Assembly (NCBI GenBank): GCA_944325025.1
Contig: CALUYN010000004.1
Span: 23,335-87,334, forward strand
DNA from: Candidatus Gastranaerophilales bacterium
GTDB lineage: Bacteria > Cyanobacteriota > Vampirovibrionia > Gastranaerophilales > Gastranaerophilaceae
DNA: 64,000 bases
Reading direction: 5' to 3'
The first letter of the stretch is position 1; every line of letters begins with the position of its first letter. Positions 23,040 through 55,626 of the stretch are shown here, one piece after another. The position numbers and the translations under genes were made by a program. The notes beneath the pieces were generated by a model. It searched no databases, had not been told where the DNA came from, and worked only from the letters and a program-made list of their open reading frames with translations.

Positions 23040-23891
23040 ATGTGGGATTACTCAGATAAAGTTATAGATCATTACAGAAACCCCAGAAACGTGGGGAAAA
23101 TTGATAACGCAGATGCTATCGGCGAAGCAGGTTCTTTGGCCTGCGGCGACTCTTTAAAAATATATTTAAAAATTAACAACGGAATTGTAACAGATGCAAA
23201 ATTCCAGACTTTCGGATGCGGTTCGGCTGTTGCAAGCTCAAGTATTCTGACTGAAATGATTATCGGTAAACCGATTGAAGAAGTAAAAAAAATTACAAAC
23301 AAAGATATTGCAGACCAACTAGGCGGACTTCCGCCTGAGAAAATGCACTGCTCTGTTATGGGCTATGAAGCATTGGAAGATGCCCTGAAAAATTATGATG
23401 ACTACACCGACCTTGACGATATCAGAAATGAAGAAGAAGCAAATAAGCAGCGCGAAAAAATTGTCTGCACCTGCTTTGGAATTACTGAAAATGTCATCTG
23501 GGATGCAATCAAAATAAACGGGCTTAAAACTGTTGAAGAAATTACAAACTACACAAAAGCAGGCGGCGCGTGCGGGAAATGCAAAGGCTTAATTCAAGAT
23601 ATAATTGACACTTACTACAAAAAAGAAGAACACGAAGAAAAAACATCTTCAACTCTCAGTCCCGCGCAAAAGATTTTAAAAATAAACAATGTTATAGAAA
23701 ATCAAATTTCACCTGAATTGAGAAAAGACGGCGGAGATATTACTTTAGTCGATATTGACGGCAATAAGGTTATGGTAAAACTTCGCGGGAAATGTTCAGG
23801 CTGCAAAAATTCACATCTTACTCTTAAAGCATTTGTAGAAAAAACTTTGAGAGATACTGTTGATGCTAATATTGAAGTTGTAGAGGTATAA
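23040..23891 (+). CDS. nifU: NifU-type Fe-S cluster scaffold (three domains)
   Basis: 283 aa with the full NifU architecture. An IscU-like scaffold occupies 1-125 (cysteines in SLACGDSLK, FGCGSAVASSS and MHCSVMG). A BFD-like [2Fe-2S] domain spans about 139-185 (CTCFGIT and GGACGKCKG). A C-terminal Nfu domain (215-283) carries GKCSGCKNS. It assembles Fe-S clusters from sulfur supplied by NifS, which follows 2 nt later. No nitrogenase genes are seen, so it probably serves general Fe-S maturation. AATAAGGATAAAG precedes the start. Confidence 0.95.
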   Translation: MWDYSDKVIDHYRNPRNVGKIDNADAIGEAGSLACGDSLKIYLKINNGIVTDAKFQTFGCGSAVASSSILTEMIIGKPIEEVKKITNKDIADQLGGLPPEKMHCSVMGYEALEDALKNYDDYTDLDDIRNEEEANKQREKIVCTCFGITENVIWDAIKINGLKTVEEITNYTKAGGACGKCKGLIQDIIDTYYKKEEHEEKTSSTLSPAQKILKINNVIENQISPELRKDGGDITLVDIDGNKVMVKLRGKCSGCKNSHLTLKAFVEKTLRDTVDANIEVVEV

Positions 23892-51071: not shown

Positions 51072-54059
51072 TTAATTTTCTTTTCTAACTGCAATACCTT
51101 TTTTAGTTGCATCAATAATTTTTAAAACAGCTTCATCACAAAGCTTTAATTTTGCCTGCATTTCAGGGTTCTGTTCTGATTTCCACTTGTTTAACACGTT
51201 TCTAAAATCATCACCGTCAAGTATACATTCACCTGTTCCGACAAGAGGTGCATATTTTTTGCTGAACTGCTTATTAAAATCAGAATAAATTTCTGTTATC
51301 AAATCAGAAGCTATTTTAGCATTATTAATAATTATTCTTTCGTCTTTTTCAATCATTGTTTTTAAATTTTCAGACAGATCATCATCAGAATTTATAACCA
51401 TTTTCCCTGTATTAACGCCCATACCCAAACTTTTTACCATTAAGTCAGTATACCTTCTTACTGAATCCATATCAGCACTTATACCATACGAACCGTCCAT
51501 ACCGTAAAATAATTTTTCTGCAGAATTTCCGCCAAATGAACAGACAATATCAGCAAACAGATTTTCAAATGACATTTCAGAATTCTTATCTTGTCCATGG
51601 TATACTGCTCCGCCGTAATACCCGCGAGGATCAAGAGTTATAAAATTAACTTTATTTGGAATATGCCATGGTTTTCCTAAGGTTTTTGCAATATTATTCA
51701 TTACCTCGAGATTTACTGCATGCCCGCATTCATGAGATGCCACAACACGTTTTTCATGGTCTTCTATATGATTTACAGCAGGCCGGCCCGTTGTTATTTG
51801 CAGATAAGCCTCAGTAAAATCAGCCTTTGTCAAGGCTTTATGTCCGCGTTCCATAGCAACAGTTTTTGCTTTTTTAACAAGGTTTTTTAAATATATATAC
51901 GGGAAACCGTTAGCTATGTTTGCAGCTGATTCTATAGTATTTTCACGTGTTTTACTGTCTCCTGCAAGTTTAATTTTTTCATCTTTCAAAGTTTGCCTGA
52001 TAATTTCAGCTCTTTCACCTTTATTATATGCTGGTGATGATACTTCTATATTATCAACAAATTTAAAAGATTTCATAGCAGCTTCCCCGATAAGAGAAGG
52101 ATTGGACACAGAGCCGACTACAAGAATATTCAGCCCTGATTTTTCAGCCTTATCCATTTCCCTCAAAAGCTGTGCCATAGCTTTCTGGTGATAATTTGAA
52201 ACCAGTTCGCCTACTGAAAAATACTCAAAATTTTCAATAAATAATACAGCAGATTTATTTGGATTTGCTTCTGCCTGAGTATTTACTATTGAAAACAATT
52301 TTTTCATAGATGCTTCCGGAGAAAGCGCCCCCCCCCCGAAAATATCAACATCTTTTGTACCGAAATCCATTGTATTAATTTCTATATAAGGGACTCTGGC
52401 TTCTCCTGCAATAGCTTTTGCAGTATACCTTCTGCCGCTGCCGGGTGAACCGTCTTGAGAATAGATTATAATACCTTTTGTTCCCATTTTTTTTGATTTA
52501 ATTTGCTTAACTAGCGATGCAGCCTCTTTTTTAGTTGAATTTTTACCAACAAGGTCATTTAGTTTTTTCCCAGTATCAAAAAATATTTCAATTGAGCTGT
52601 CATCACCGGCTTTTTTTAAGAGATTAGTTGCCTCTTTCAAGTAATTAGAAACATCTGCTTCATTTATTTCTTTTTTATCAATATAATAACTTACAATTTT
52701 TTTCATAAGGTTTATTGTTTTAGACGGGAAAACACCATCAAGTTGAGCAGATGCCTCTACAACTTTCTCCAAAGCATTCTTTGAAAATTGTTTTTGAACA
52801 TTATTCATTAAAACAGGATTTTCTTTAAATGATTTTATCATTTGCGCTGTTGACAATCCAGGCAAAGTAACTTCCTCAAAATCCGGAAAAAGATTTGAAC
52901 TGACAGCAAAGTTATAATAATTATTTTTTGTTGAATAAAATAAATATTTAACATTAGCCGGCGGATTAGCAATAGTTTCTAAAAAGTCTTTTGGGATATT
53001 AATAGATGCTTTGCCGTTTTCGTCAACTTCCATTTGTTTTGATATTAGAATATTTACCGGATCTGCAATAATTATATGTTCTTTTGATTTATCCTTCCCT
53101 AATCTGCTTACAACCTTATTAAAATAATCAGGAGATGTCACTTCATTAAATTCTGTAATTGAATAATTCTTTCCGCTGTTTTTAATAGCCTTACGCACTG
53201 TATCTATAAAAGGCTGCGGAATTTCCTTAGACGCATCAAAAGTCAGAAAAATATTTGTACCTAGCGAAAGATTTTTCAAGACATTTTCTGCTTTCTTGTC
53301 ATAAACGCTAAAAGGAACTCTATTGCTTTCAGGAGTATGATTTTGCATTGAAATCTCAGAAATTTCGTTGAATAAATCTTCTACAAAATCTGACGTAATT
53401 TCATCAGGGCTGTTAACAGCCCCTAATATAAATGTTGTAACATCAATAGCTTCATCTTCTTTTCTGTTACCCCAGACAGCATCTGTCAAATCCTCAGTAA
53501 GCCCGACGTCTTCAACATTTGTTGCACTATCTTTTTTATAATAATCTAACATTGCATCAAGAGTTATTATGTTATTTTTAACAATTTTTTTCAAAGATTT
53601 TCTTAAATTAGGGTCACTCAAAATATTTGAAGAAGTTTCTGCAATAATAATATCTGCCATATCTGGATGATCTTCTGAACTGTTAAAATCTTCTTTTCCA
53701 GAATCTAATTTCTCAATATAATCAAAGAGTTCGTTAAGCGAATATTTTATAACATGCAATGTAGTAACAGCAGAAAAGCCGCTGTTTAAAGCATCATTTT
53801 TTAGATTATAAATTAATTTCTTTGTTGGCGTGTCCGAGTAGTACATAATATTTTCCAGTTTTGAATTTTTAGCATTTACTGATTTGGACTCAGACGATGT
53901 TTTGCCAAGGAAAGGCACAAAATAGTTCAAACTTAAGGCTGCAGGAACAGTAGTATAATCTTTATTTGACTTATTACAATCAGTCTTATTATTAGAAAAT
54001 ACGAAATTTTTAGAATAGTATACCTTATCAAAACCCGCAGTAATTTTATTTATCATCAT
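51072..54059 (-). CDS. Double-AAA protein: degenerate Clp-like module + FtsH-like AAA + M41 metallopeptidase
   Basis: 995 aa, much longer than FtsH (about 610-650) and without its N-terminal membrane helices. Residues about 60-490 resemble a Clp/Hsp100 D1-type region without a functional P-loop; the end VFPSKTINLMKKIVSYY aligns with the LPDKAIDLIDEA helix of ClpB. Residues 525-740 are an FtsH-like AAA module with altered catalytic motifs: Walker A GSPGSGRRY (Lys to Arg) and Walker B LFIENFE (DE to EN). M41 zinc site HECGH is at 776-780, with the third ligand in SADMDSVRRY about 87 residues later. A run of ten G (52328-52337) encodes Gly residues in the FGGGA pore-loop position. Single gene; ATG ATG at the start. 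Confidence 0.8.
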   Translation of the reverse strand: MMINKITAGFDKVYYSKNFVFSNNKTDCNKSNKDYTTVPAALSLNYFVPFLGKTSSESKSVNAKNSKLENIMYYSDTPTKKLIYNLKNDALNSGFSAVTTLHVIKYSLNELFDYIEKLDSGKEDFNSSEDHPDMADIIIAETSSNILSDPNLRKSLKKIVKNNIITLDAMLDYYKKDSATNVEDVGLTEDLTDAVWGNRKEDEAIDVTTFILGAVNSPDEITSDFVEDLFNEISEISMQNHTPESNRVPFSVYDKKAENVLKNLSLGTNIFLTFDASKEIPQPFIDTVRKAIKNSGKNYSITEFNEVTSPDYFNKVVSRLGKDKSKEHIIIADPVNILISKQMEVDENGKASINIPKDFLETIANPPANVKYLFYSTKNNYYNFAVSSNLFPDFEEVTLPGLSTAQMIKSFKENPVLMNNVQKQFSKNALEKVVEASAQLDGVFPSKTINLMKKIVSYYIDKKEINEADVSNYLKEATNLLKKAGDDSSIEIFFDTGKKLNDLVGKNSTKKEAASLVKQIKSKKMGTKGIIIYSQDGSPGSGRRYTAKAIAGEARVPYIEINTMDFGTKDVDIFGGGALSPEASMKKLFSIVNTQAEANPNKSAVLFIENFEYFSVGELVSNYHQKAMAQLLREMDKAEKSGLNILVVGSVSNPSLIGEAAMKSFKFVDNIEVSSPAYNKGERAEIIRQTLKDEKIKLAGDSKTRENTIESAANIANGFPYIYLKNLVKKAKTVAMERGHKALTKADFTEAYLQITTGRPAVNHIEDHEKRVVASHECGHAVNLEVMNNIAKTLGKPWHIPNKVNFITLDPRGYYGGAVYHGQDKNSEMSFENLFADIVCSFGGNSAEKLFYGMDGSYGISADMDSVRRYTDLMVKSLGMGVNTGKMVINSDDDLSENLKTMIEKDERIIINNAKIASDLITEIYSDFNKQFSKKYAPLVGTGECILDGDDFRNVLNKWKSEQNPEMQAKLKLCDEAVLKIIDATKKGIAVRKEN

Positions 54060-54131: not shown

Positions 54132-54608
54132 TCAGGTTTCTTTAATATTACACACATCAACCCAAGCTTCACTTTTTGATATCAAAAATAATTCATCACA
54201 AGTCATTTCAATAGCAGAATTAGGAGTTCCGCAGGCCGGAAAAATTGTATCAAATCTACGCAATGAACTGTCACAGTAAGTTTTAATATCGTCACGCTTT
54301 AATGCAAACGGGCAAACTCCACCGACAGGATGACCTGTTAAATTCGCAACTTCATCTGCATTTAACATTTTTGCTTTAATTCCAAACATTTGTTTGAATT
54401 TTTTATTATCGATTTTTGTATCACCTGCTGTCACAACAAGAATGCAGGTATCATCTTTGCTGAATGACAAAGTTTTAGCTATACGGGCAGGAATAACATT
54501 GAGAGCAGCCGCTGCTAAATCAACTGTCGCACTCGACGAATTGAGCACTATAATTTCCTTATCTTTTCCATATAAACTTAAATATTTTTTAACGCTCTCT
54601 ATTGACAT
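54132..54608 (-). CDS. YbaK/EbsC-type aminoacyl-tRNA deacylase
   Basis: 158 aa from ATG 54608 (MSIESVKKYL), preceded by AGAGGGTATACT; the longer frame runs into the tRNA gene. YbaK/ProX fold: ARIAKTLSF (Lys), VVTAGDTKIDNKKF, LTGHPVGGVCPFALK with the GGVCPF signature, and PACGTPNSAIEM. Family members hydrolyse mischarged tRNAs, for example Cys-tRNAPro. It lies just downstream of tRNA-Phe on the same strand and may be on the same transcript. Confidence 0.9.
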   Translation of the reverse strand: MSIESVKKYLSLYGKDKEIIVLNSSSATVDLAAAALNVIPARIAKTLSFSKDDTCILVVTAGDTKIDNKKFKQMFGIKAKMLNADEVANLTGHPVGGVCPFALKRDDIKTYCDSSLRRFDTIFPACGTPNSAIEMTCDELFLISKSEAWVDVCNIKET

Positions 54609-54635
54609 AGTATACCCTCTGATATAAACAAAAAA

Positions 54636-54708
54636 TGCCGCGTCTCGGAATCGAACCAAGGACACAGGGATTTTCAGTCCCTTGCTCTACCAACTGAGCT
54701 AACGCGGC
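54636..54708 (-). tRNA. tRNA-Phe (GAA)
   Basis: 73 nt cloverleaf on the minus strand: acceptor GCCGCGT / ACGCGGC, D arm GCTCAGTTGGTAGAGC, anticodon loop CTGAAAA with anticodon GAA, T arm GGTTCGATTCC, discriminator A. The CCA end is not encoded. Confidence 0.97.
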
Positions 54709-54848: not shown

Positions 54849-55385
54849 TTAAGACTGCGGAGCCAGATACAAAGTAACATTTCTTCCTTCAAGCTGCGGC
54901 TTTTTCTCCACAACAACAGGCAAATGCTCCATATCTGCTACAAAACGGTTTGCAAGATCAAATGCCAAATTTGAATGCTGCATCTCGCGGCCTCTCAGCA
55001 TAACAACTATTTTTACCTTGTTACCTTGTGCAATAAATTTTTCAATACTTTTTATACGAACCTGATAATCATGGGTATCTATTTTATATCTTATTTTAAT
55101 TTCTTTAACTTCTACGGTATGCTGTTTTTTCTTGGCTTCTTTTGCTCGTTTTTCCTGTTCATATTTATATTTACCGTAATTTAAAATTTTTGCTACCGGC
55201 GGTTCCTGATTGGGATTTATTAAAACTAAATCTAAATCTGCATCATAAGCCATTTGTAATGCCTTAGATGTCTGGATTATACCGTGATTTTGACCATCTT
55301 GATCAATTAATCTTACTTCTTTTGAGCGGATACGCTCATTCATTATTGCTTGATTTTTATTGTTTCTGTTGTCGTTGGGTGCTAT
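54849..55385 (-). CDS. infC: Translation initiation factor IF-3, probable AUA start
   Basis: 178 aa when started at the AUA codon (55385-55383). IF-3 prevents premature subunit joining and checks the initiator codon. N domain: NERIRSKEVRLIDQDG; linker: NYGKYKYEQEKRAKEAKKKQ; C domain: VKEIKIRYKIDTHDYQVR and MLRGREMQHSNLAFDLA. No ATG gives a good fit. The only strong site, AGGAGATAAAACA, points at AUA, and the resulting length and 14-residue leader match E. coli IF-3. An ATG at 55343 would leave only MNERIR, without a Shine-Dalgarno. Rare start codons are a known autoregulatory feature of infC. The usual rpmI-rplT partners do not follow. Confidence 0.9.
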   Translation of the reverse strand: MAPNDNRNNKNQAIMNERIRSKEVRLIDQDGQNHGIIQTSKALQMAYDADLDLVLINPNQEPPVAKILNYGKYKYEQEKRAKEAKKKQHTVEVKEIKIRYKIDTHDYQVRIKSIEKFIAQGNKVKIVVMLRGREMQHSNLAFDLANRFVADMEHLPVVVEKKPQLEGRNVTLYLAPQS

Positions 55386-55626
55386 TGTTTTATCTCCTAT
55401 GTTGTACTCACAAGTGTCATGGTAGCACAAAATTCCATTTTTTCCATATTTATTAAGGATTTTTTTTTGTAACAAAATGTAAAGTTAGAAAAAATTAAGG
55501 CTTTAATAATGAACTATTGGATGTTTTAGCCTATTTTAAGTAAAAAAACTATTAAAGTTTTAGCAAATTTTACCGATATTAATATTACAAAGAAAAATTT
55601 TAATAAAAATATAAGGAGTCTAATTT

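Follow-up and report, generated by a model that had tools for sequence, protein, structure and literature searches.

Structure of the fusion gene

The 64,000 nt stretch analysed here (the window; positions 23,335 to 87,334 of contig CALUYN010000004.1, Candidatus Gastranaerophilales bacterium, a gut relative of the cyanobacteria, assembly GCA_944325025.1) encodes on its minus strand a 995-aa protein in which a Clp/HSP100-like N-terminal half without a P-loop is joined to an FtsH-type AAA module with altered catalytic motifs and to an M41 metalloprotease domain with an intact zinc site. The reading frame (51072-54059) has an ATG start, with AGGAG a few bases 5' of it, and a stop codon. Its features are as follows.

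51072..54059, minus: whole gene (open reading frame, ORF), HSP100-N / pseudo-D1 / pseudo-FtsH-AAA / M41 protein, 995 aa
53865..54059, minus: N-terminal tail, residues 1-65, low confidence (predicted local distance difference test, pLDDT, <50), probably disordered
53910-53912, minus: invariant Phe F50, the same residue in 33 rows
53340..53864, minus: Clp/HSP100 N-domain-like helical domain, residues 66-240, about 8 helices (AlphaFold2, AF2, and fold comparison)
52614..53321, minus: degenerate Clp/Hsp104 D1-like AAA module and lid, without P-loop, residues 247-482
51789..52568, minus: FtsH-type AAA module with altered motifs, residues 498-757 (large part 498-675, lid 676-757)
52425..52451, minus: altered Walker A GSPGSGRRY, residues 537-545, R543 for Lys
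52230..52247, minus: altered Walker B VLFIEN, residues 605-610, N610 for the catalytic Glu
52053..52079, minus: arginine-finger region AMKSFKFVD of the second region of homology (SRH), residues 661-669, from the alignment
51180..51788, minus: M41 zinc metalloprotease domain, residues 758-960 (Pfam and fold)
51720..51734, minus: zinc site HECGH, residues 776-780
51471..51473, minus: third zinc ligand, Asp D863

The window protein matches Pfam AAA (7.8e-13, residues 537-667) and Peptidase_M41 (1.8e-15, residues 765-910). The FtsH-type AAA and M41 part together take up residues 498-960, with no membrane helices, and their predicted fold matches FtsH; the matches include FtsHi motor complexes such as 8xks. 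We regard the assignment of the D1-like, AAA and M41 parts as close to certain, and the Clp-N identity of residues 66-240 as highly probable.

Altered motor motifs and an intact protease site

The alignment has 99 distinct rows including the window. Seventy-one of them (the window, and rows scoring above 500 bits against profile A1, the lowest at 585) are taken as the family; the remaining 28 are lower-scoring relatives, at 104-284 bits against A1. A preliminary description of the window, made from its sequence alone, had reported a Lys-to-Arg change in Walker A (GSPGSGRRY); this position is Arg in all 71 family rows and Lys in all 28 relatives, and the P-loop glycines 540 and 542 are kept throughout the family. 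In all but one of the 71 rows the Mg-binding Ser/Thr has given way to another residue, mostly a second basic one (Arg 41 and Lys 23, together 64/71; Leu 2; Thr, His, Met, Phe and Tyr 1 each). At the Walker B Asp position there is Glu in 57 rows, Asn in 7, Asp in 4, Ser in 2 and Lys in 1. The catalytic Glu, which the same description had found missing (EN for DE), is present in none of the 71, Asn standing there in 69 and His in 2. Both SRH positions, 663 and 666, are Arg in 11/11 FtsH rows; in the family the first is Lys in 62/71 (Arg in 2) and the second Lys in 54/71 (Arg in 4). No family row has a normal Walker A, and the distant relatives that keep the Lys form separate groups, so these changes are not sequence errors.

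The zinc site is intact: its H, E and H and the downstream Asp D863, both correctly read from the window in the preliminary description, are present in 70/70 family rows (one further row is truncated), and the Asp in 28/28 relatives as well. Residue 574, which falls near the FtsH pore loop in a gapped alignment, is Phe in just 45/71 rows and the surrounding segment is variable; this would fit a ring that does not translocate.

Hydropathy indicates that the N-terminal transmembrane helices of FtsH are not present in the family, as had been proposed for the window protein. Its best 19-residue value is 1.12, compared with 2.71 in the FtsH of the same genome, and the highest among the 71 family rows, counted from the start Met, is 1.46. 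Stop-to-stop reading of some family rows gives values up to 1.94, but these stretches precede the start codon.

The N-terminal half

The preliminary description had suggested that the N-terminal region resembles Clp D1 without a P-loop, and structure prediction of this half returned an HSP100-like fold. The predicted fold of residues 66-482 is that of an HSP100/Clp N-domain followed by a D1 AAA module, and fold-comparison matches run across the N-domain and D1 of ClpC, ClpA, ClpB and Hsp104. In the D1-like module the D1 AAA fold is present, with a Clp-type lid, and a functional P-loop is absent.

Sequence profiles give a less direct picture. Comparison of the N-terminal half with ClpC of its own order was not significant (best probabilities: whole half 2.1%, N-domain 5.4%, D1-like part 2.2%), and no Clp domain, Clp_N included, is among the 25 Pfam families listed, out of 27, for 33 family members. 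A bridge is formed by the N-termini of six relatives that keep the Walker A Lys, which match the D1-like part of the family (probability 98.1, E 1.3e-13) as well as ClpC 263-409, that is D1 past Walker A and through the lid (probability 89.9, E 1.7e-6); these E-values come from one-to-one comparisons of shallow profiles and are not database E-values. In the profile comparison the six align to the family through their D1-like part only, with no Clp-N-like part aligned. Because of these results D1 ancestry is well supported, and Clp-N ancestry is argued mainly from the fold. Pfam AAA_lid_9 is found in one of the bridging relatives (L021, 28.4 bits, cut-off 22.8) and falls below the cut-off in a second (L023, 16.2 bits); none is listed for the other four (for L132, among matches at E <= 1e-5).

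A profile of the N-termini of four relatives matched at E <= 1e-6 in 19/292 genomes. The match places fall into two sets: eight are in frames as long as family members (1013-1037 aa, E 5.1e-18 to 8.9e-7), and the other twelve are in shorter frames (497-893 aa, E 7.5e-12 to 8.9e-7). A Pfam scan of three frames from the shorter set found Clp_N and AAA_lid_9 in each, which identifies all three as Clp proteins.

A 497-aa frame at L197:1226-2716 (minus), in a genome from another family of the phylum (G317), has Clp_N and a D1 lid but only a weak AAA match (26.8 bits). It may be a Clp N+D1 half standing on its own, perhaps degenerate, and the fusion could have drawn on such a piece. A 454-aa frame (G000:C10:43342-44640) has at least three Clp_N matches and is too short for a full Clp ATPase; Clp_N-matching frames of similar length are present in many relatives.

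Selection

The inactivated AAA large part is the best-conserved domain of the family, with a mean majority-residue fraction of 0.81 (32 rows of A1, truncated L062 excluded), followed by M41 (0.67), the AAA lid (0.65), the D1-like module (0.55), the Clp-N-like domain (0.42) and the tail (0.30). Ratios of nonsynonymous to synonymous substitution (dN/dS), for six pairs chosen among seven close rows, were 0.035-0.078 for AAA and 0.046-0.125 for M41, with AAA lower in five of the six pairs; whole-gene values were 0.116-0.142, and the tail reached 1.07 in one pair. These ratios are rough, dS being >1 in all six whole-gene comparisons. Conservation and low dN/dS together indicate that the inactivated motor is maintained and is not decaying. 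We consider the domain order (Clp-N-like, P-loop-less D1, FtsH AAA with fixed motif loss, intact M41) and its purifying selection to be established, as far as alignments and predicted structures can establish them.

Relatives and origin of the family

The 28 relatives comprise seven of a D1-like group (the six carriers of the D1-like N-terminus, and L022, which groups with them), ten of a second soluble type whose N-terminus is different, and 11 membrane FtsH. In the D1-like group the Walker B Glu position is Glu in four and Asp in three, and the Asp position is Asp in six and Asn in one.

In a tree of the M41 part only (98 of the 99 rows, truncated L017 being left out; labels assigned by profile score, midpoint root for drawing only), the dead-motor rows form a single clade of 70 rows, with one change (100/99, found in 100% of 200 bootstrap trees). 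Its neighbours are the seven D1-like relatives (88/92, 90%; joined at 96/83), then the ten second-type proteins (100/99), then FtsH. The tree program warns that joins of long branches may be false, among them those of L117/L118 (family) with L020 and others, and of the second type with FtsH. Three rows (L012, L112, L119) hold GxGK[ST] elsewhere in their sequence. The simplest account is that a dead Clp D1 half became fused, in a soluble protein, to a live FtsH AAA-M41 in the order Gastranaerophilales, and that one lineage of this fusion then lost the second motor once, fixing new residues there.

The second soluble type (L120-L129) has frames of 742-782 aa, intact Walker motifs and no FtsH membrane helices, and co-occurs with the dead-motor family in some genomes. 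Paralogues can also be paired within one genome (L021 and L131 in G047; L022 and L132 in G056), one having intact AAA motifs and the other a partly altered Walker B (IDDFD); L024 has INDFD. The Walker B-altered paralogues could possibly be intermediate stages or hetero-oligomer partners.

Possible functions

The preliminary description suggested an ATP-independent or regulatory machine, and a functional reading of this kind appears the most likely one from the sequences and models. In more specific form we favour, with moderate confidence, a soluble, self-compartmentalised (chambered) M41 metalloprotease that would work without ATP hydrolysis. By analogy with FtsH, the AAA and M41 layers would assemble as a hexameric ring enclosing the zinc sites. 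Without an ATPase, folded proteins could not be pulled in, and the frozen D1 and AAA layers would act as a scaffold and as a passive pore and filter, admitting unfolded or flexible chains, with the fast-changing Clp-N-like domain presumably recruiting clients or adaptors. It is conceivable, though less firmly so, that the strictly kept Gly-rich loop, with its Arg and the Arg or Lys after it, continues to bind an anion, probably a nucleotide, and that this ligand might be a signal for assembly or gating, not fuel. Walker A Lys-to-Arg changes often, but not always, leave ATP binding without hydrolysis, some changes impairing binding as well (available part of PMC6254361); RecA K72R and RAD51 K133R are described as examples of binding without hydrolysis in the available parts of PMC5663514 and PMC3155514.

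Several observations weigh against such a passive chamber. The loss of the Mg-binding Ser/Thr (70/71), together with that of the Walker B Asp (67/71), speaks against ordinary Mg-ATP binding. Conservation of the pseudo-P-loop is stricter than scaffolding alone would require, and could point to a regulatory role whose output is proteolysis. Finally, the full-length AF2 model has a predicted template modelling score (pTM) of 0.45, and does not fix the arrangement of the domains.

A bolder idea, which we put forward tentatively, is that the AAA fold was turned from a motor into a static sensor, giving a new class of ligand-gated protease. The conserved Arg and the Arg/Lys after it would do the work of both the Walker lysine and magnesium. 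A nucleotide or another anion could then be held without hydrolysis, and this ligand would switch a two-layered M41 chamber, covalently linked and fed through an HSP100-like vestibule, by controlling how it assembles or opens. A related possibility, to our minds a doubtful one, is a ligand-gated, site-specific processing protease that makes limited cuts in specific clients held by the Clp-N-like domain; its Arg-rich pseudo-P-loop would sense a nucleotide or other anion and thereby gate the cleavage. The invariant glycines and Arg, the second basic residue in 64/71 rows at the Mg-binding position, and an AAA dN/dS below that of M41 in five of six pairs are all in its favour, but the pseudo-P-loop could be conserved for ring contacts instead, and the ligand is putative.

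It is also possible, if unlikely, that the protease is fed by another motor, the dead rings docking through the Clp-like half on an active AAA+ ATPase, whether ClpC, ClpB or some other, that unfolds substrates into the M41 chamber. Two Clp-type layers are retained ahead of the protease, the window genome encodes ClpP and an HSP100 with Clp_N (L147, frame of 831 aa), and an intact-motor M41 paralogue co-occurs in some genomes. However, no partner gene is consistently adjacent. Nor can the soluble paralogues with an intact motor be obligatory, since none turned up in the window genome; the third extra match of that genome (L004) has two AAA domains and no M41.

That the protein is still an ATPase, with Arg replacing Lys and some other catalytic residue, seems very improbable: the AAA fold and the Gly-rich loop are retained, but the Lys and the catalytic Glu are changed in every family row, the Mg-binding Ser/Thr and Walker B Asp in nearly all, and the SRH arginines are mostly gone. 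A degenerating gene, a sequencing or assembly artefact, or chance can be set aside in spite of the patchy presence of the family (88/287 genomes of the order), given the same motifs in 71 distinct rows from many assemblies, the low whole-gene dN/dS and the Pfam E-values.

Comparison with known systems

The nearest precedent in working for the chambered, non-hydrolysing protease that we favour is LonC of Meiothermus taiwanensis, of which this family would be the M41 counterpart. LonC is a hexamer without ATPase activity that binds six nucleotides and degrades unfolded substrates independently of ATP (available part of PMC3391209). As in LonC, an intact protease site, in LonC that of an active protease chamber, is combined with an AAA module lacking catalytic motifs, in the window family by sequence; the ATP-independent breakdown of unfolded chains described for LonC is here a proposal. 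LonC differs in being a Lon-type protease whose Walker A-like motif, GPPSLGKHE, has a Lys (same part of PMC3391209), where the window family has M41 and an Arg. The window family further has a second AAA layer, itself dead, and a Clp-N-like domain.

With FtsH and other M41 AAA proteases the family has in common the AAA-M41 order and fold, HExxH and the third Asp; it differs in having no membrane helices, in its extra HSP100-like half, and in the replacement of Walker A and B residues across the family and of SRH residues in most rows. Plant FtsHi pseudo-proteases, as described in the available part of PMC8197885, are likewise FtsH-derived proteins that have lost one activity and are kept by selection, but are the opposite case: they are membrane-bound and have lost the zinc site, whereas the window family is soluble and has kept the zinc site and lost the motor. 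The HSP100 unfoldases ClpC, ClpA, ClpB and Hsp104 have the N-domain and D1 fold in the same order; in the window family D1 has no P-loop, and an FtsH-type AAA, to which the protease is covalently joined, stands in place of D2. The soluble relatives L020, L021, L023, L024, L131 and L132, of the same bacterial order, combine a degenerate D1, an FtsH-type AAA and M41 in one soluble chain but have an intact Walker A Lys, with Walker B varying in L024, L131 and L132.

Among the features that mark FtsH, the window protein has M41 with HExxH and the third Asp, and lacks functional GK[ST], DE and SRH arginines; among those of HSP100, it lacks a functional D1 P-loop and an HSP100-type D2, its second AAA being FtsH-type. 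By these features it lies outside both FtsH and HSP100, and may be described as a variant of M41 protease, HSP100 and LonC-like logic. The statement in the preliminary description that no family with this domain order was known agrees with the score of the window protein against the NCBIfam FtsH model TIGR01241 (116.5 bits, curated cut-off 600) and with a full-text literature search (most subscription journals lying outside it), which found no description of a Clp-FtsH dead-motor family among the best-matching papers listed.

The family would bring to the M41/FtsH lineage the LonC idea of a protease that keeps an AAA ring without a motor. It also adds an HSP100-FtsH fusion, together with relatives from a single bacterial order whose motors, intact or partly altered, represent intermediate states. 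Comparing dead D1 plus live motor with dead D1 plus dead motor opens the role of a non-hydrolysing AAA ring to direct test. Where a dead-motor AAA module is more strongly constrained than the enzyme attached to it, there is good reason to search the P-loop fold for new ligand-sensing roles.

Distribution and gene surroundings

The window genome (1.76 Mb, 43 contigs) also has an ordinary membrane FtsH (C16, L002). Some match was found in 58/59 near genomes, in many of them only ordinary FtsH. A scan of genome_contigs, which detects close relatives only, yielded 33 loci, of which 32 belong to the family; 25 of the 33 record titles are Candidatus Gastranaerophilales, the others being uncultured bacterium, Cyanobacteria, Clostridiaceae, Acinetobacter and one archaeon, this last with an AAA match alone. 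We infer that the Clostridiaceae and Acinetobacter titles belong to mislabelled metagenome-assembled genomes. Profile A1 (33 rows) matched the 88 genomes of the order at E <= 4.2e-150, all in family f1 save two of f7. In a phylum-wide draw of 386 genomes, which overlaps the order, 63 had a match at E <= 1e-35, every one in Gastranaerophilales, one of them (G106) with the second soluble type only. Full-length family members were found only in this order.

A phage origin was considered and rejected: 26 phage records match, 0 cover 80% of the query, and the best 20 of the 26 cover 38-47%, from about residue 490 on, which is the AAA-M41 part. A scan of IMG/VR with A1 gave 35 stretches that fit a pattern, none of them a relative.

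Upstream of the gene, on the same strand, are what we take to be a YbaK-like gene (54132-54665) and infC (54849-55475). A match to the infC frame is present at 6/32 loci (L034-L039), which belong to the closest relatives; the gene order of the window recurs mainly in close relatives, and neighbours differ farther away. No consistent partner gene was found among four genes on each side of the 32 loci; the commonest neighbour group, presumably glycosyltransferase-like, occurs at 9/32. Promoter-like (22, 22.9 expected) and terminator-like (4, 2.2 expected) sequences are near chance.

In the tails of relatives (A3), LKAN and F55 are invariant, and a stretch 'NLKANYLTF' resembles the F50 region despite the different architecture; the F50 stretch is perhaps a docking or targeting motif. 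In 303 ORFs flanking the window and related loci, family genes included, a loose 'FxG' pattern as near F50 occurs 31 times at residues 10-80 and 13 times at 80-150, and a strict one 11 and 3 times, many of these being the family itself. In a sample of ORFs from the same genome the motif was not enriched as a targeting signal (loose, 12/231 at residues 12-80, compared with 10 and 6 further in; strict, 2 compared with 5 and 1). At 7/32 loci (L046-L050, L052, L064), a small acidic protein of 70-71 aa, a possible adaptor, is encoded directly downstream on the same strand.

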